NCBI RefSeq assembly: GCF_900129635.1
Contig: NZ_FSRB01000001.1
Coordinates: 2,643,501 to 2,707,500 of the forward strand
Reading direction: 5' to 3'
Length of the DNA stretch: 64,000 nucleotides
Source: Singulisphaera sp. GP187
Lineage (GTDB): Bacteria; Planctomycetota; Planctomycetia; Isosphaerales; Isosphaeraceae
Shown in pieces: positions 38,083 through 46,571 of this stretch. Numbering within the stretch: position 1 is the first letter of the stretch; each line of letters opens with the position of its first letter. The notes beneath the pieces are model-generated. The model had not been told where the DNA came from and ran no database searches. It saw only the letters and a list, made by a program, of their open reading frames with translations. A program made the position numbers and the translations under genes.

Positions 38083-38211
38083 CCAGATCGCTGGCCTTTC
38101 GGTACTGTCAAAAGCATTACCAGAGTCGAGCCAGCACGTTGCGCTCGCTCTGTCCGCTTATTTTGAGTGGCTCATTTCGGGTCTTTCTCTCCGGGGGCAA
38201 CGCACAACGCC

Positions 38212-38775
38212 ATGATGATCAAGGCCACTGACATCCGTAGGGGGATGGTGATCACGATCGAAGGAACCAACTTCGTCGTGGTCGACTTCGCCCACCATAC
38301 CCCCGGCAACCTTCGCGCCATGGTCCAGACGAAGCTCCGCAACATGAATAGCGGCGCCTTGATCGACAAACGGCTTCGGTCGGTCGACCAGATCGAAGTC
38401 CCGTACGTCGAGACCAAGCAATTTGAGTATCTCTACTCGTCGGGGGACGAGCACGTCTTCATGGAATCGGAGACGTTCGACCAGTTGAGCTTCCCGCCCG
38501 AGATCCTCGGCACGGCGATGCAGTACATCTTGCCCAACAGCAAGGTGCAGGTCATGTACGTCGACGATAAGCCGGTCTCCGTCGAGGTCCCGGCCTCGAT
38601 CGACCTGACCGTGACCGATACGCCGCCGTCGCTCAAGGGCGCCACCGCCACCAACCAGTACAAAGAGGCGATCCTCGAGAACGGCCTGAAAGTCCAGGTT
38701 CCCCCGTTCATCGGTCCCGGTGAAAAGATCCGGATCGACACGCGGACCGGCGAATACGTCGAGCGCGTTAAGTAA
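38212..38775 (+). CDS. efp: Elongation factor P
   Basis: Relieves ribosome stalling at polyproline stretches. 187 residues with the three-domain EF-P layout (KOW-like, then OB: YVDDKPVSVEVPASIDLTV, ending PGEKIRIDTRTGEYVERVK). The tip loop is HHTPGNLRAMVQTK. At the site of the modified Lys34 of E. coli stands Asn33, as in the TPGNLR subgroup that also includes YeiP-like factors. Thus the EpmA/EpmB lysine modification could not occur at this site. ATG at 38212 taken from EF-P alignment; an upstream extension to 38167 is unlikely. Confidence 0.93.
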   Translation: MMIKATDIRRGMVITIEGTNFVVVDFAHHTPGNLRAMVQTKLRNMNSGALIDKRLRSVDQIEVPYVETKQFEYLYSSGDEHVFMESETFDQLSFPPEILGTAMQYILPNSKVQVMYVDDKPVSVEVPASIDLTVTDTPPSLKGATATNQYKEAILENGLKVQVPPFIGPGEKIRIDTRTGEYVERVK

Positions 38776-39283: not shown

Positions 39284-39934
39284 ATGAGCCCTCCTCCCCC
39301 CCGGCCTCAGATTTACCACATCACCCACGGGAAGCACCAGGAGCGGATCATCGCCGAGGGCTTCCTGTGGTCGGATGCGGAGATCCTCGCCCGGGGAGGG
39401 CCGGAGAAACCGATCGGGATGGCGAAGATCAAGAAGCGGCGTCTTGAAGAGCAGATCGTCCACTGCCACCCGGAAACGAAGGTCGGGCAGTACGTCCCGT
39501 TCTACTTCTGCCCTCGGTCGGTCATGCTCTTCCTTCTCCACATGGGGAACCACCCGGACATCACCTACCGGGAAGGCCAACGCCCAATCCTCCACCTCGT
39601 GGCCGATCTCCACGAGGACGTAGCCTGGGCCGAGGGTCGGCAGCGGGCTTGGGCGTTCACCAACGGCAATGCGGGAGGCCGGTTCTACCAGTCGTTTACT
39701 GACCTGGCCGAACTCGACCAACTGGGCTGGGAGCATATCGCAAGCGACGAATGGGGGGAGGCCGAGGTCAAGGAAGCCAAACAATCCGAGTTCCTGGTCT
39801 TCGGATCGTTCCCCTGGCCGTTAATCCGGACCATCGGGGTCAAAGACGAGAAGCTCGCCGCGAGGGCACGCGAGATCCTGGCGAAAGCTGACCACCTGCC
39901 TGATGTACAGGTCCAATCGGGATGGTACTATTGA
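39284..39934 (+). CDS. darT: DarT-type DNA ADP-ribosyltransferase toxin
   Basis: Toxin that uses NAD+ to ADP-ribosylate thymidine in single-stranded DNA, blocking replication. 216 residues. Family features: IYHITHGKHQERIIAEGFL (NAD-binding start), IKKRRLEEQIVHCHP (R52/R53 region), VGQYVPFYFCPRSVMLF, and the catalytic Glu E169 in KQSEFLVFGSFPW. GAGGA precedes the ATG. It is followed after 30 bases by its antitoxin darG. It is intact and located between hsdS and hsdR stubs; it may have been an embedded anti-phage module of that operon. Confidence 0.92.
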   Translation: MSPPPPRPQIYHITHGKHQERIIAEGFLWSDAEILARGGPEKPIGMAKIKKRRLEEQIVHCHPETKVGQYVPFYFCPRSVMLFLLHMGNHPDITYREGQRPILHLVADLHEDVAWAEGRQRAWAFTNGNAGGRFYQSFTDLAELDQLGWEHIASDEWGEAEVKEAKQSEFLVFGSFPWPLIRTIGVKDEKLAARAREILAKADHLPDVQVQSGWYY

Positions 39935-39964
39935 GCAAATGGACAACTTGGGGAAGAAGCTGAC

Positions 39965-41029
39965 ATGATCCACCTGGCCCACGGCGACATCCTGAAGCAC
40001 GAGGCGGACGCCCTCGTCAACACCGTGAACTGCATGGGTGTGATGGGTCGGGGGATCGCCCTTCAGTTTCGTCGTGCGTTTGAGGACAACTACGAGGCCT
40101 ACCGCAAGGCTGCCAAGGCCGGCGACGTCATCCCCGGCCGCATGTTCGTCTTCGATCGGGTGACCCTGGAACCGCCCCGCTGGATCATCAACTTTCCGAC
40201 CAAGCGGCACTGGAAGGCGAACAGCCGCATCGAAGACATCGAAGCCGGCTTGGTAGATCTGGTCCGGGTGATCCAGGAGCGTGGGATACGGTCGATCGCC
40301 ATCCCTCCCCTGGGCTGCGGACTGGGAGGCTTGAACTGGGCCGAGGTCCGTCCCATGATTGAGGACGCCTTGACCGCAATCCCCGAGGTCGACGCCTACC
40401 TGTTCGAGCCCGGCAAGGCCCCTCCGGCTCGGGAGATGGTCAACCGGACGAAACGTCCTCAACTGACGACGGCCCGAGCGGCGGTTCTGGGATTGATGCG
40501 GAACTACCTCGCCGGGGTGATGGACGTCGGGATCTCCCTGCTGGAGATCCATAAGTTGATGTACTTTCTTGAGGTGGCCGGAGAACCGCTGGACCTCGAC
40601 TACAGCCAAAATCTCTACGGCCCTTACGCCGCGAAGCTCCGTCACGTCCTGAAGACCATGGAAAGCCACTACATCCACGGTTATGGTGAAGGTGGGGACG
40701 ACCCCAGGAAGCCCATCGAGCTGGCCGAGGGAGCCGCCGAGGAAGGGCGGGCGTTCCTTCAGGATCATCCGGATACGCTGGAGCGGTTCGAGAAGGTCAG
40801 TGGACTGATCGAGGGGTTTGAATCGCCCTACGGCATGGAGCTGCTGGCCACCGTTCACTGGGTGGCCGATCGTCAAGGAGCGAGGACAGTCGACCAGACC
40901 GTCCAGAAGGTCCACGGCTGGAACACTCGCAAGACGATGTTCACCCCCCACCAGATCCAGGCAGCGTGGGACCGACTCCACCTGCTGGGCTGGCTGAACC
41001 GAACGCCCCAGGCCGAAGGACACCTCTGA
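39965..41029 (+). CDS. darG: DarG antitoxin: macrodomain ADP-ribosylglycohydrolase
   Basis: Removes the ADP-ribose put on DNA by DarT and also binds the toxin. 354 residues. The N-terminal macrodomain (1-155) has HGDILKHEADALVNTVNCMG, VMGRGIALQFRRAF and IPPLGCGLGGLNW. The C-terminal domain (170-354; SLLEIHKLMYFLEVAGEPL, NLYGPYAAKLRHVLKTME) is the DarG partner-binding part. It is complete, ending about ten residues into the region overlapped by the hsdR stub. Confidence 0.92.
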   Translation: MIHLAHGDILKHEADALVNTVNCMGVMGRGIALQFRRAFEDNYEAYRKAAKAGDVIPGRMFVFDRVTLEPPRWIINFPTKRHWKANSRIEDIEAGLVDLVRVIQERGIRSIAIPPLGCGLGGLNWAEVRPMIEDALTAIPEVDAYLFEPGKAPPAREMVNRTKRPQLTTARAAVLGLMRNYLAGVMDVGISLLEIHKLMYFLEVAGEPLDLDYSQNLYGPYAAKLRHVLKTMESHYIHGYGEGGDDPRKPIELAEGAAEEGRAFLQDHPDTLERFEKVSGLIEGFESPYGMELLATVHWVADRQGARTVDQTVQKVHGWNTRKTMFTPHQIQAAWDRLHLLGWLNRTPQAEGHL

Positions 41030-41143
41030 GAAGTGGCTCGAGGCCCTGATCGTCAAGTCGGTGATCGAGGAGGCGGGATACCTCCCCGGCCGTTCCGAAA
41101 ATTACAACCGCGATCACGCCGTCGACCTGAATCATTTGCTAGT
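41019..41143 (+). pseudogene. N-terminal stub of type I restriction endonuclease HsdR
   Basis: In the +1 frame relative to darG, overlapping its last codons, the translation is DTSEKWLEALIVKSVIEEAG, YLPGRSENYNRDHAVDLNHLL. From memory, many HsdR subunits begin with TSEKGLEALIVxSLxxEAGY and YDREHAVDLxxLLAFL. The similarity stops at about 41141, exactly where the stop of the converging GNAT-deacetylase gene lies, so the remaining about 1000 codons were deleted. No start codon is clear. Confidence 0.7.
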
Positions 41144-42887
41144 GCCGGCGGGTGCGTCCGAGCACCCCAGCGCAGACGCCTGTCAGCATCCGGGTGGCGT
41201 TCCGCCCGAGCGATCGGATGTTGTACCCACCCTCCTGGACCAGGAGGGTGGGGAGCTTCATGCCGCCGATCCGGTAGCCAATCTCGAAGAGGCCGTCGGG
41301 GGTGACGCTCCAGGTGCCCGTCGGGTCGGCCTTGGCGATGTCGAGGCCGACCGGCACGACCAGGACCTCGGGCTTGAACTTGCGGACGAGCGTGAGGGCC
41401 TCGTCGAGGGCCTCGAGATAGCGGCCGTCGTGCGTATCCTCGGCGAGCGGAATGTTGTGGTTGAAGCCCTTGCCCGGGCCTTCACCAATCTCGTCGGCAA
41501 ACCCTGAGAAATAGGGATAGGCGAAATTGGGGTGGCCGTGGATCGAAATGGTCAGGACGTCGGACCGGTTGTAGAAGATGTCCTGGGCGCCGTTGCCGTG
41601 GTGATAGTCGATGTCGAGGATCGCCACCCGGCCGAACGACTCGACGAGATACTGCGCGGCAATCGCGGCGTTGCAGAAGTAGCAAAAGCCGCCGTAGGTG
41701 TCGCGTTCGGCATGATGGCCCGGTGGCCGACACAGGCTGTAGACCAACGGGTGCCCCGCGCGGATCGCCTCCGCGCCCGAGAGCGCGACATTCACCGCGG
41801 CCCGGGCGGCCTTGTAGGCGTCACGGCTCAGAGGCGTAAACGTATCAATACAATAATAGCCCGCCCTCCGGCTCCGGTCGTGCGGGGGACGGTCGGTCCT
41901 CCGGATCGGGAAGACGTAGGGGTAGACCATCTCCCCCTCGGGGATGTCCAGGCAGAAGTTGCGGAGGTAGTTGACGAAGTCGGTGTCGTGAACGGCCCGG
42001 ATCGGCTTCTCGCCGAAATTGCGGACCGGAAGCCGCTCGACGTCGGGCAGTGAGTCGAGCGCTTTGAGGATGACGTCCACCCGCGCCGGGCGTTCGACGT
42101 AGCCGCGTTCGCGGACATGATGAAGCGCATGCCGCGAGGAACAGAAGACCTTGAGAGGCTGGAGCCGGCGCGGAATCCTCGGCTTCTTGTCGCTCGGAGT
42201 GATGTAGCGCGGCTTTCGCAGTCGGACCGGTGATTCCTTGACCGAGGCGACCAGTTCGAGCACGTAGGGATCGTCGGGGTCGTAGTGATATCGCTCGGTC
42301 AGAATCATCTTCATCGCCTGGCGCAGCTCGGGAGCGTCCAGCGGCTTCGTGCTCTGCAAGGGGTCGTAGAGCAGCCGCGGCTCAGCGGGATGATTGGGGC
42401 GAATCGGCTGGTCGTAGAGCGTCCCCACAATCGGCAACGCGTTGTAACGCTCGTAAAACTTCAGCCGAGACTTGTTCATCTTCAGATCGGTCGTATCAGG
42501 AACCTGTCCGGGGTCGTCGGTCGGAACCTCAAAGAAAAGGCCCGTGGCCCCGCGCGCGATCAGGTCTTCGCGAAGCGCCTCGTAGAGCGCTCCTCCCAGT
42601 CCTCGCCCCCGGCGCTCGGCTTGGGCCACGATGAAGTCGAGGTACGCAAAGCCGATCGAATCGAAGTAGTCGGCCAAGGCAAACCCGAGAACCTGATCCC
42701 CTGGCCCGTGCGCGGCGAGGAGGATCGTCGGGTAGCCCCGACCCGTCTGATCGCCGATCTTGCGAGCGATATAGTCATCGCCGACGTCGAGGTCGGGAAA
42801 GGCCGCCCGAAACAAGGTCTGGATCTCGGCGATGCAGCGGCGATCGTAATCGCGGTGAACGCCAAGGACATGGCTGATCCGAAACAT
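41139..42887 (-). CDS. GNAT acetyltransferase fused to a histone-deacetylase-family amidohydrolase
   Basis: 582 residues in two enzymes. Residues about 15-175 are a GNAT N-acetyltransferase with the acetyl-CoA loop AERRGRGLGGALYEAL. Residues about 230-580 are a class II HDAC/acetylpolyamine amidohydrolase: PARVDVILKAL, CRPPGHHAERDTYGGFCYFC (catalytic His pair), VAILDIDYHHGNGAQDIFY (Zn Asp/His), LDIAKADPTG and LLVQEGGYN. The metal-binding and proton-relay residues all appear present. ATG at 42887 follows TGAGGG. Last gene of the kamA operon, 121 bases after the second ATP-grasp gene. Substrate could be an acetylated amine such as N-acetyl-beta-lysine. Confidence 0.88.
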   Translation of the reverse strand: MFRISHVLGVHRDYDRRCIAEIQTLFRAAFPDLDVGDDYIARKIGDQTGRGYPTILLAAHGPGDQVLGFALADYFDSIGFAYLDFIVAQAERRGRGLGGALYEALREDLIARGATGLFFEVPTDDPGQVPDTTDLKMNKSRLKFYERYNALPIVGTLYDQPIRPNHPAEPRLLYDPLQSTKPLDAPELRQAMKMILTERYHYDPDDPYVLELVASVKESPVRLRKPRYITPSDKKPRIPRRLQPLKVFCSSRHALHHVRERGYVERPARVDVILKALDSLPDVERLPVRNFGEKPIRAVHDTDFVNYLRNFCLDIPEGEMVYPYVFPIRRTDRPPHDRSRRAGYYCIDTFTPLSRDAYKAARAAVNVALSGAEAIRAGHPLVYSLCRPPGHHAERDTYGGFCYFCNAAIAAQYLVESFGRVAILDIDYHHGNGAQDIFYNRSDVLTISIHGHPNFAYPYFSGFADEIGEGPGKGFNHNIPLAEDTHDGRYLEALDEALTLVRKFKPEVLVVPVGLDIAKADPTGTWSVTPDGLFEIGYRIGGMKLPTLLVQEGGYNIRSLGRNATRMLTGVCAGVLGRTRRH

Positions 42888-43008
42888 GGCGGCCCTCACA
42901 AGGGCCTATCTCGATAGGCCGATTGGAATCGAGGGTGTCACGGTTCGAGTGCAGGTCAGAGGTCGAACGTCGACATCATTCTCGAGGACCGATTTCACCG
43001 TGCCTCAC

Positions 43009-44088
43009 TCATCTTTGCCGATCCGGCTCGGATGCGGAAGAACCGCGACCACGATTCCCAAGGTCTGAGGCTCGAAGCGGCATTCGTGGTCGCCCCATCG
43101 CCTGCCGCGCCAACGCGGCGAGCGTCGCGGAATAGTCTCGGCCGGAAACCCGTAAGGCCCGCGCCCAACCCGCGGTCGGCCCGATATCGGGGTTGGGGTT
43201 CACTTCCAGGATCACGGGCTCGCCACGGTGATCGAGTCGCAGGTCGACCCTGGCATAGTCACGGCAACCCGTCACCTTGAACGCCGAGACGGCCAACCGG
43301 CACATGGTCTCGGCCAGTTCGCGTTCGATTCGCGCTGGGCAGAGCACAGGGCTTGCGCGGTCCTCAACCGATCCGGCCGACCACTTCGCCGCATAAGTCA
43401 AGATCGGCCATGTTCCTTCCACCGGCTCATAAGCAACTTCGGCAATCGGCAAGGCTTCGGGTTCGGGAAGCGCCAGCACCCCGACATTATATTCGGAGCC
43501 GGGCAAGTAGGCCTCGACCAACGCCGCGCCACCATACGTGGCATGGATCCAGACCACCCGGTCGCAGGCGGAATCCCAGTCGAGCACGACGCTCGCCTGA
43601 TCGATGCCGAGGCTGCCATCCTCAGCGTCCGGCTTGACGATCGCCGGGCCGGCCCAGTCCCACCTCGGGACCGCCGCGCCCGGTTCAACCACGAAACCGG
43701 GCGCGGTGGGCAGACCCGCGCCCCTCAAAAGGAACTTGGCTCGCCCTTTCGAGACACAGAGCGCCAACGCTTCCATCGGCGAGCCGGTGTATGCAAAGCC
43801 GGCCAGTTCCAGCAGCCCGGTCATGTGGGTCGCTGCCGCCGTCGATGCCCCGAACCCTTCGATCAAGTTGAACGCAACGTCCGGGCCGATCCGGTCGAGA
43901 CTACGGAGCACCTCGACCACGGGAGGTCTCACCGCGAGTAACACCGATTCGAAACCGTGATTCTCGAGCCCGGCGGCAACGGCCTGAGCGACCTCGACGA
44001 CATCCGCTTCCGATACGGCGTCCGGATGATCCACCGGCAAGACCGGCGCATTGTAGAGAACAGCGACCTTCAAGCGGACCGAGGTCAC
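43009..44088 (-). CDS. ATP-grasp ligase, D-Ala-D-Ala-ligase-like (second of pair)
   Basis: 359 residues. ATP-grasp elements: an N-terminal domain (LKVAVLYNAPVL...), FNLIEGFGASTAAATHMTGL, GFAYTGSPMEALALCVSK, GPAIVKPDAEDGSLG (glycine-rich loop), ALVEAYLPGSEYNVGVLAL, and the Mg-site EVNPNPDIGP. It starts at GTG 44088, overlapping the first ligase's stop by GTGA, so the two are translationally coupled. Relative to true Ddl it lacks part of the omega-loop pattern, so the substrate is probably not D-alanine but another amino acid. Confidence 0.85.
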   Translation of the reverse strand: MTSVRLKVAVLYNAPVLPVDHPDAVSEADVVEVAQAVAAGLENHGFESVLLAVRPPVVEVLRSLDRIGPDVAFNLIEGFGASTAAATHMTGLLELAGFAYTGSPMEALALCVSKGRAKFLLRGAGLPTAPGFVVEPGAAVPRWDWAGPAIVKPDAEDGSLGIDQASVVLDWDSACDRVVWIHATYGGAALVEAYLPGSEYNVGVLALPEPEALPIAEVAYEPVEGTWPILTYAAKWSAGSVEDRASPVLCPARIERELAETMCRLAVSAFKVTGCRDYARVDLRLDHRGEPVILEVNPNPDIGPTAGWARALRVSGRDYSATLAALARQAMGRPRMPLRASDLGNRGRGSSASEPDRQR

Positions 44089-45125
44089 AGCCCCACCCTC
44101 GCCCTTGAAATCGGCTCCAGGCCGACACGGAGCAAAGCCACGCGGAGGACTTTGCGGATCATGTCGGCATAGCTGATCCCCATCCCACCGGCCAGAATGA
44201 TCAGGTCGCTCCAATCGGGAGCCAGACCAGGGAGCGGGTTCGCTTCGATGAAGTAAGGAACACCGTCGCGAATCCGAAAGTCGATCCGTGCGAGGTCGCG
44301 GCAGCCTAGCGCTACGTAAGCGCCAAGGGCCGACCGGATCAAGTGTTTCATGACGTCGGCGGAAAGTTGGGCGGGCGTCTCGTACGCCACGCGCTCGTCC
44401 CAGTCGCGTTTCACCTCGATCGAGTAGACGAAACGAGAGTCGGGCGTCTTCGGCCGAATCCGCATGGCCCCGATCACTTCCGCTCCATCCCCGTTGCCGA
44501 CGATCCCCACCGTCACCTCATCGCCCGCGATGAATTCCTCAATCAGGACGGGCTGGCCGTAGTCGCCTGAGAGAACCATGTAAAGCTCGACGGCTTCCTC
44601 ATGGGTATCGGCGATGCAACGCGCACGAATCCCTTTGCTGGAGCCTTCGAAGCAAGGCTTGACGATCCATTGATCGGCCCCTTCCCAAAGGCCTGCGTGG
44701 TGCATCAAGGAGCCGACTGCACGCGAGGACAGGCCGGCGGGGAAGGAGAACCCCTTGGGCACGGCGACCGAATCGGCGACCAGCCGCTTGGCGACTCCTT
44801 TGTCGAGCGCGGCGGCGAGCGTCAGGGGGTCGGACCCCGAGTACGGGATCCCGAGCATCTCGAGCACGGCCGGCACGCGTGCCTCACGGTTCCGGCCCCC
44901 CCCTTCCCCCTCGGCGAGGTTCCAGACGAAGTCAGGGGGATCGGCGAGGACGCGATGGAGAAATTCGCGACCATCGCCCAACAGAACGACATCATGCCCT
45001 TCACCCCGGAGCACCGCGGCCAAGGCCTCGATCGTTTGCGGCTTATCGAACTCCTCGTACCGGTCGTCGGGCCCGTCAGCCGAGGCGACAACCGGTACGA
45101 GGTCGAACGTGATCCCGATCCTCAA
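44085..45125 (-). CDS. ATP-grasp ligase, D-Ala-D-Ala-ligase-like (first of pair)
   Basis: 346 residues. Features: GITFDLVPVVASAD, FVWNLAEGEGGGRNREARVP, GIPYSGSDPLTLAAALDK, WIVKPCFEGSSKGI (glycine-rich loop), VLIEEFIAGDEVTVGIVG, ARIDFRIRDGVPYFIEANP and LPGLAPDWSD. These follow D-Ala-D-Ala ligase order, with the NPLPGL Mg-binding end. The start is TTG at 45125, since AGAGGA lies nine bases upstream and there is no ATG nearby. It begins 18 bases after kamA and overlaps the second ligase. Amino-acid ligation at a carboxylate, forming a dipeptide-like product, is inferred. Confidence 0.87.
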   Translation of the reverse strand: MRIGITFDLVPVVASADGPDDRYEEFDKPQTIEALAAVLRGEGHDVVLLGDGREFLHRVLADPPDFVWNLAEGEGGGRNREARVPAVLEMLGIPYSGSDPLTLAAALDKGVAKRLVADSVAVPKGFSFPAGLSSRAVGSLMHHAGLWEGADQWIVKPCFEGSSKGIRARCIADTHEEAVELYMVLSGDYGQPVLIEEFIAGDEVTVGIVGNGDGAEVIGAMRIRPKTPDSRFVYSIEVKRDWDERVAYETPAQLSADVMKHLIRSALGAYVALGCRDLARIDFRIRDGVPYFIEANPLPGLAPDWSDLIILAGGMGISYADMIRKVLRVALLRVGLEPISRARVGL

Positions 45126-45143
45126 GGCGCGGGTCCTCTCAAT

Positions 45144-46571
45144 TTAATGGTCCGGAGTGTGACCTTGGCCATGTCCGTTGCCAGCCGAGCCATTGGATTT
45201 CTTCGGGCTCGCCCCCTGGGTCCCGTGGCCGTTGAGCCCGTTGGCGATCCCCCTGGCCCGTCTTCGAAGTAGGCGGGGATTGCCCTCAGGAACGAGGACT
45301 TCCGCCTGGCCTTCGAGCAGGGCGCTCACCCCCTGGGTCACGACCGCAGCTTGCTTCAACGGCGGCTCACCCGTGGGGTGATAGTTGACGATCACCCCTT
45401 CATAGTTGCGCAAGACGACGGAGTCGTTGGTCGCCGAGAGCAGGTAGTTGGGCATCAAGGGGATCTTGCCCCCTCCCCGTGGCGCATCGACGACGTAGGT
45501 GGGAACTCCCAGTCCCGAGATGTGACCGCGAAGCCCCTCAATGATCTCGATCCCTTTCCAGACCGGGGTCCGGAAGTGCCCTGCCCCGGTCACGGGATCA
45601 CAGTGGAACAGGTAATACGGCCTCACCTTGATCCGAAGCAGGGCCCGGCAAAGCGCGCGCTGAGTGGCCAGGCTGTCGTTGACCCCCTTCAGGAGCACGG
45701 CGTGGTTGTTGATCGGCAGCCCGCGCATCCGCAATCGATCGCAGGCGCGTCGCGTTTCCGACGTCACTTCCCGAGGATGGTTGAAGTGCGTCTGGATCCA
45801 AATTTTTCCTGAGGACTCAAGAATATCAAGAAGGTTATTGTCCTCGATCCGTTGCGGCAAGGTCACAGGCACGCGGGTGCCGATCCGGATGACGTCGAGG
45901 TGGGGGATGGCGCTCAGGCTCTCGACGAAGTAGGCGAGTTTCTCGAGCGGAAGGGTCAGTGGGTCGCCTCCCGAGACGATCACGTCGTGGATCTCGGGGT
46001 GGTCGCGAACGTACTCGACCATTCGCTGATCGTCGCGCGAGACCGAATCCCAGCCGCCCCGTTTCATGGTGGCGCGTTTCCGGGTGCAGAACCGGCAATA
46101 CATCGTGCAAACGTGGGTGGTGACGAGCAGGGCGCGATCGGGATAGCGATGCGTCAGGCCCGGGACGGGGGAATCCTTATCCTCGTCGAGCGGATCATCC
46201 TCTCCCTCCGCGCCAGTCATCTCCAAGGGGGAAGGGACCGATTGGAGTCGGATCGGATCGAGCGGATCGAACCGATCGATCAAGGAGAAGTAATAAGGGG
46301 GAATGGCAAGCTTGTATTGAGCCTGAAGCGACTCAATGGCGTGGCGTTCATCATCGGTGAACGGAATCAAATCGAGAATCTGGCGGGGGTGCCGGACGGC
46401 ATTTTGCGACTGCCAGTGCCAGTCGTTCCAATCACTGTCGGGCACGTTGGCCCAGACGGGGTGGCGGGGGGTTGGTTGCAGGGGCGAACTGGGAGGCTCG
46501 TCGCCATCGGCAACCTCGACCGCATCTGGGATGGTGACGGCTGTGCTCGTTGAGCTACTCGGCTCGCCCAT
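45144..46571 (-). CDS. kamA: L-lysine 2,3-aminomutase
   Basis: Radical SAM/PLP enzyme converting L-lysine to L-beta-lysine. 475 residues, a size closer to KamA than to the shorter EpmB. Iron-sulfur motif CTMYCRFC (C155, C159, C162), substrate-binding region FHCDPVTGAGHFRTP with D325, VVDAPRGGGKIP with D362 and PLP Lys K369. The two Asp positions thought to hold the epsilon-amino group of lysine are kept, which argues against a glutamate aminomutase. The C-terminal 60 residues are Gly/Ser/Asn-rich and unlike the family. First gene of the four-gene minus-strand operon. Confidence 0.92.
   Translation of the reverse strand: MGEPSSSTSTAVTIPDAVEVADGDEPPSSPLQPTPRHPVWANVPDSDWNDWHWQSQNAVRHPRQILDLIPFTDDERHAIESLQAQYKLAIPPYYFSLIDRFDPLDPIRLQSVPSPLEMTGAEGEDDPLDEDKDSPVPGLTHRYPDRALLVTTHVCTMYCRFCTRKRATMKRGGWDSVSRDDQRMVEYVRDHPEIHDVIVSGGDPLTLPLEKLAYFVESLSAIPHLDVIRIGTRVPVTLPQRIEDNNLLDILESSGKIWIQTHFNHPREVTSETRRACDRLRMRGLPINNHAVLLKGVNDSLATQRALCRALLRIKVRPYYLFHCDPVTGAGHFRTPVWKGIEIIEGLRGHISGLGVPTYVVDAPRGGGKIPLMPNYLLSATNDSVVLRNYEGVIVNYHPTGEPPLKQAAVVTQGVSALLEGQAEVLVPEGNPRLLRRRARGIANGLNGHGTQGASPKKSNGSAGNGHGQGHTPDH

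Follow-up and report, generated by a model that had tools for sequence, protein, structure and literature searches.

A planctomycete operon of a lysine 2,3-aminomutase, paired ATP-grasp ligases and a GNAT-deacetylase fusion as a candidate source of acetylated beta-lysine peptides

Layout and conservation of the operon

The minus strand of the 64,000-nucleotide stretch of Singulisphaera sp. GP187 DNA analysed here (the window) encodes, at positions 41139–46571, an enzyme predicted to make beta-lysine, two ligases and a protein in which an acetyltransferase is fused to a deacetylase, which raises the question of what these four genes make together. The first is KamA, a lysine 2,3-aminomutase-type radical SAM/PLP enzyme (45144–46571, minus strand, 475 aa; Pfam Radical_SAM and LAM_C), and is followed on the same strand by LigA, a Ddl-fold ATP-grasp carboxylate-amine ligase (44085–45125, 346 aa from a TTG start; Dala_Dala_lig_C), by a second Ddl-like ATP-grasp ligase, LigB (43009–44088, 359 aa from a GTG start; Dala_Dala_lig_C), and by the GNAT-deacetylase fusion (41139–42887, 582 aa from the ATG at 42887; Acetyltransf_1 and Hist_deacetyl). 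KamA and LigA are separated by 18 bases, LigA and LigB overlap by 4 (a GTGA that places the LigB start on the LigA stop) and 121 bases lie between LigB and the fusion, and the coordinates, strand and spacing on which an earlier note on this DNA had placed the four genes in one operon are all verified.

The 121-base spacer between LigB and the fusion gene (42888–43008, minus strand) is the site at which three members of the family (G216, G217 and G251), which have all five genes, carry a small stand-alone GNAT. It is empty here, with no remnant of that gene in the window, the small GNAT having been lost from the operon site in both Singulisphaera sp. GP187 and G199. An 18-base inverted repeat, GGCCTATCTCGATAGGCC, lies in the spacer at 42903–42920, directly upstream of the fusion gene, and is a possible operator. 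The 10.7 Mb genome contains only one KamA at E ≤ 0.001. The same operon is present in Singulisphaera acidiphila DSM 18658 (L032), which was the sole match when the genome collection was scanned with LigA, and neither the Rfam search nor a plasmid search with the GNAT of the fusion gave a match.

Of the 45 family genomes compared, six carry the whole set of KamA, LigA and full-length fusion (Fisher p 1.2e-7), and the remaining 39 yielded nothing of the cassette beyond a single distant KamA and a single LigB-like protein. At a great distance from the family, KamA, LigA, LigB and the fusion follow one another in the same order and with tight spacing in G155, G327 and G370, at identities of 44–48% for KamA and the fusion and 34–39% for LigA; in G142 the order is KamA-fusion-LigA. 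Since the set recurs in order, and presence and absence of its members coincide across the family genomes, the neighbourhood is not a matter of chance, and the proposal of the earlier note that the genes form one functional unit withstood this comparison of related genomes. In G439 a collapsed GNAT-deacetylase remnant lies between kamA and ligA (L154, 6251–6700), so that the fusion has decayed at least once.

Predicted activities of the encoded proteins

The best solved structure for KamA is that of a lysine 2,3-aminomutase (2a5h, E 2.7e-125), and the protein keeps the CxxxCxxC cluster motif, the PLP lysine in its GGGK motif and the equivalents of Asp293, Asp330 and Lys337, residues whose roles, as those of the Ddl residues considered below, are well established. 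The pair of aspartates responsible for binding the side chain of lysine is complete; the arginine enzyme BlsG has no counterpart of the second. KamA belongs to the family defined by TIGR00238 (319 bits, cut-off 199.2) and falls outside the AblA equivalog TIGR03820 (455.2 bits, cut-off 525.4). It also lacks the C-terminal zinc cysteines, as does one annotated AblA reference, and scores far under the cut-off of the EpmB profile.

The two ligases score well below the cut-off of the D-Ala-D-Ala ligase model TIGR01205 (97.7 bits for LigA and 98.6 for LigB, cut-off 245.65). An alignment of 111 ligases shows K97, K144, K215, R255, D257 and N272 to be invariant (111/111), E180 and E187 to be kept in all but one, and E270 to be either Glu or Asp; the ATP, Mg and acyl-phosphate residues of an ATP-grasp carboxylate-amine ligase are in place in both LigA and LigB. 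Ddl Tyr216 is kept in 0/111, and with it the Glu15/Ser150/Tyr216 triad is not kept. A tree of the same 111 proteins separates LigA and LigB into two clades (support 0.997 and 0.961), and a structure model of LigA (pLDDT 86) matches Ddl structures. Judged at the sequence level, by the low scores and the lost triad, LigA and LigB are not ordinary D-Ala ligases, a finding on which the earlier note had made its proposal depend. The sequence does not reveal their partner amino acids, and alpha-lysine or D-amino acids might serve as substrates; the LigA serine that matches Ddl Ser281 moves by one column between alignments, and we therefore base no substrate inference on it.

Both domains that the earlier note had seen in the fusion are confirmed by Pfam, with Acetyltransf_1 at residues 44–125 and Hist_deacetyl at residues 264–569. 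The N-terminal GNAT domain (42393–42887, minus strand, residues 1–165, with an approximate border) scores 27.1 bits against a cut-off of 20.7 and carries the RxGxG acetyl-CoA motif, whose glycines are invariant in 12 aligned proteins. The C-terminal zinc deacetylase domain (41181–42098, minus strand) keeps the RPPGHHA, DIDYHH, GLDIAKADP and EGGY motifs in alignment with 6phr and, by alignment and structural match, is closest to the acetylpolyamine amidohydrolases, the zinc ligands, His dyad and catalytic Tyr of which are all found in the predicted deacetylase. No match to AblB (TIGR03827) was obtained with the fusion GNAT, and one small GNAT reached 16.2 bits against a cut-off of 205.1. The small stand-alone GNAT, of about 160 aa, is closest among solved structures to 2r7h, whose deposition names it a putative D-alanine N-acetyltransferase, and this match hints at relatives elsewhere than in Planctomycetes.

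A remote relative of the small GNAT (32% identity) is encoded elsewhere in the Singulisphaera sp. GP187 genome (G000:C5:1802945; L212, 7410–8458) and might act in trans. We have not counted it, since it overlaps a release-factor-like, GGQ-containing gene and has a relative in the cassette-free genome G222; the same overlapping pair occurs in G199 (L213).

Distribution in the phylum and comparison with known systems

KamA was found in 88/392 genomes of the phylum, and is enriched among the genomes that bear the fusion, being present in 9/11 of these (p 4e-5); the two fusion-bearing genomes with no detected KamA are G178 and G426. We have classified 90 KamA loci, comprising up to about 16 kb around the KamA of most of the 88 genomes together with loci already collected, and LigA lies near kamA on the same strand in 58 of them (57 genomes, 30 families). 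LigB accompanies LigA in 53 of these 58 loci. Since a separate small GNAT is present in 48/58 loci whereas the fusion is present in 9/58, the core of the cassette is KamA, LigA, LigB and the small GNAT. The fusion, which the earlier note had counted among the four genes of the operon, is an optional accessory and not the centre of the system. Gene order varies between lineages, the usual one, counting from KamA, being KamA-LigA-LigB-small GNAT (39 loci), with KamA last in several lineages. On the KamA tree the ligase-linked proteins require 6 to 9 gains or losses, which indicates that the link between KamA and the ligases arose or was retained on more than one occasion, and reference AblA/LAM proteins group among KamAs without ligases. 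Apart from the cassette genes themselves, the families that recur nearby are a TetR-like regulator (8 loci) and lineage-specific genes; no transporter, NRPS, resistance or export gene recurs near the 58 loci, although a transporter encoded elsewhere could escape this survey.

Several known systems share part of this logic. The AblA/AblB operon of methanogens and some bacteria likewise places a lysine 2,3-aminomutase before a GNAT acetyltransferase, but the cassette adds two ATP-grasp ligases, and the fusion a deacetylase, while its KamA lies under the AblA cut-off and lacks the C-terminal zinc cysteines and its GNATs are not AblB. In blasticidin S type clusters, too, a radical SAM aminomutase (the arginine 2,3-aminomutase BlsG) supplies a beta-amino acid and is found next to a carboxylate-amine ligase; in contrast, the cassette has lysine-type aminomutase residues and paired Ddl-type ligases, is devoid of nucleoside genes and has no exporter seen nearby. 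With Ddl itself the ligases share the fold and the ATP/Mg site, and differ in scoring far under the cut-offs, in having lost Tyr216 and in forming two clades. The deacetylase shares with the acetylpolyamine amidohydrolases (HDAC fold) the zinc and catalytic motifs, at 37–38% identity to msAPAH in structural alignment, yet it carries an N-terminal GNAT and is encoded with KamA and ligases. The synthesis of the dipeptide osmolyte NAGGN also combines an acetyltransferase with an ATP-grasp ligase to yield an acetylated dipeptide solute; unlike the present case, it involves no beta-amino acid, and relies on a single fused enzyme and an amidotransferase. The nearest precedents are thus the abl operons, the Bacillus yod-kamA operon and aminomutase-ligase pairs (L085), none of them with the gene set of the cassette. 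No published description of a KamA and paired-ligase operon was found in the literature searched, in which amidoligase surveys are incompletely covered, and the novelty of the KamA-LigA-LigB-GNAT operon is provisional.

Proposed product and alternative explanations

Since the gene set stands together not only here but in dozens of further planctomycetes, a small acetylated beta-lysine peptide is a probable product, and we judge it on balance likely that the operon directs the synthesis of a small peptide that is N-acetylated and contains beta-lysine. Such a product would most likely be intracellular, since the neighbourhood survey revealed neither a transporter nor a self-resistance gene that recurs. 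What is observed is the gene set, its conservation and co-occurrence, and the catalytic residues kept; the reactions, the sequence in which they run, the amino acids joined to beta-lysine and the function suggested below are inferred. KamA would convert L-lysine into beta-lysine; LigA and LigB, as relatives of D-Ala ligases with altered substrate pockets, would then form one amide bond apiece, linking beta-lysine with further amino acids or with small acids, and a GNAT, usually the small one but in this genome presumably the corresponding half of the fusion, would cap a free amine with acetyl. The acetylpolyamine-amidohydrolase-type domain may strip the acetyl group, either unmasking a protected intermediate or recycling the product; a single protein that both adds and removes acetyl would run a futile cycle if its domains did not differ in target molecule or in timing. 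Of the two products suggested in the earlier note, the beta-lysine peptide emerges as the most economical, and the protected precursor is possible but gained no specific support, as the deacetylase could equally recycle the product. A broader proposal, which we hold more tentatively, is that of a phylum-wide class of acetylated beta-lysine peptides made by KamA and paired ligases, in which one fused enzyme adds and removes the acetyl group in some lineages.

Singulisphaera is a freshwater, low-salt group, which weakens an osmolyte role; nevertheless, an osmolyte or stress solute is our leading guess for the function of the product. Both acetyl-beta-lysine and acetylated dipeptides have precedents as solutes (PMC1224877). 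If the proposal holds, a common operon of a little-studied phylum makes a small molecule that nobody has sought, and many planctomycete genes at such loci, likely called lysine 2,3-aminomutase or D-Ala ligase, would need renaming; it can be assayed in Singulisphaera acidiphila DSM 18658, which is in culture.

Two alternatives would retain beta-lysine as a building block and change its destination. An exported specialised metabolite on beta-lysine (antibiotic, siderophore or signal), similar to streptothricin or blasticidin, seems unlikely to us: an aminomutase and an annotated carboxylate-amine ligase do adjoin blasticidin-type genes in L085, rhizobial plasmids pair KamA with an ATP-grasp-type gene, a Thioflavicoccus KamA lies near a Ddl-like ligase, SbnA and ornithine cyclodeaminase, and the cassette is patchy within the family and has the TetR-like regulator in eight loci, but the missing recurrent export, resistance, transporter and NRPS genes speak against it, and a small steady gene set across 30 families resembles a house metabolite more. 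Slightly less probable again is N-epsilon-acetyl-beta-lysine as the end product, with the ligases on a side branch. The minimal abl logic is indeed KamA plus an acetyltransferase (PMC1224877), and most loci have a small GNAT; however, neither GNAT is AblB, KamA lies under the AblA cut-off and outside the AblA branch, and the ligase pair is conserved far more steadily than a side branch predicts. An ordinary abl operon is rejected because AblB is missing, in agreement with the view of the earlier note that no AblB-type osmolyte operon is present.

The remaining explanations assign the genes to general metabolism. In the Singulisphaera sp. GP187 genome, which has no Ddl over the TIGR01205 cut-off, nothing is closer to Ddl than LigA and LigB, so that they could substitute for the missing enzyme or put beta-lysine in the cell wall; this is quite improbable, since Ddl Tyr216 is never kept and none of the 45 family genomes has a Ddl over the cut-off (10/14 control genomes pass), 39 of them also being devoid of the cassette. 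Canonical Ddl being missing both with and without the cassette, the latter was rejected as the family's Ddl replacement. A breakdown of lysine via beta-lysine and acetylated intermediates would resemble the Bacillus yod-kamA operon, which also joins KamA, a beta-lysine acetyltransferase and a peptidase-family hydrolase (L083), but no aminotransferase, thiolase or CoA-transferase recurs near the cassette loci and two ATP-consuming ligases would be senseless in a catabolic route, which makes it highly improbable. Finally, we give almost no credence to a KamA that serves the beta-lysylation of EF-P. EF-P genes adjoin the operon in several Isosphaeraceae, but no such neighbour of the cassette turned up in the loci checked beyond this family; the EF-P encoded in the window (38167–38775) has the tip HHTPGNLRA, with Asn where the modifiable Lys is expected, in accordance with the earlier note, which held that it cannot be lysylated there. 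In addition, KamA scores far under the EpmB cut-off and no EpmA over the cut-off was found in the genome, the best match being a 516-aa frame of LysRS size. EF-P modification was accordingly rejected as the role of the operon, and the acetylated beta-lysine peptide is retained as the preferred product.

Some additional observations concern other genomes and the vicinity of the operon. In nodule-rhizobia plasmids (L080 and L219), KamA adjoins a gene annotated as of the acetyl-CoA carboxylase biotin carboxylase family, possibly another aminomutase-ligase pairing. A Thioflavicoccus plasmid (L077, 5656–11137) encodes SbnA, ornithine cyclodeaminase, a transaminase and a Ddl-like ligase, with KamA on the opposite strand, and this may be a diaminopropionate/beta-lysine cluster. 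In the window, a DarT (PF14487) and macro-domain DarG-like pair (39284–41029, plus strand) sits between efp and the operon; neither gene was found in the corresponding loci of four relatives (G199, G216, G217 and G251), where efp adjoins the fusion gene, and the pair thus looks like a recent insertion.
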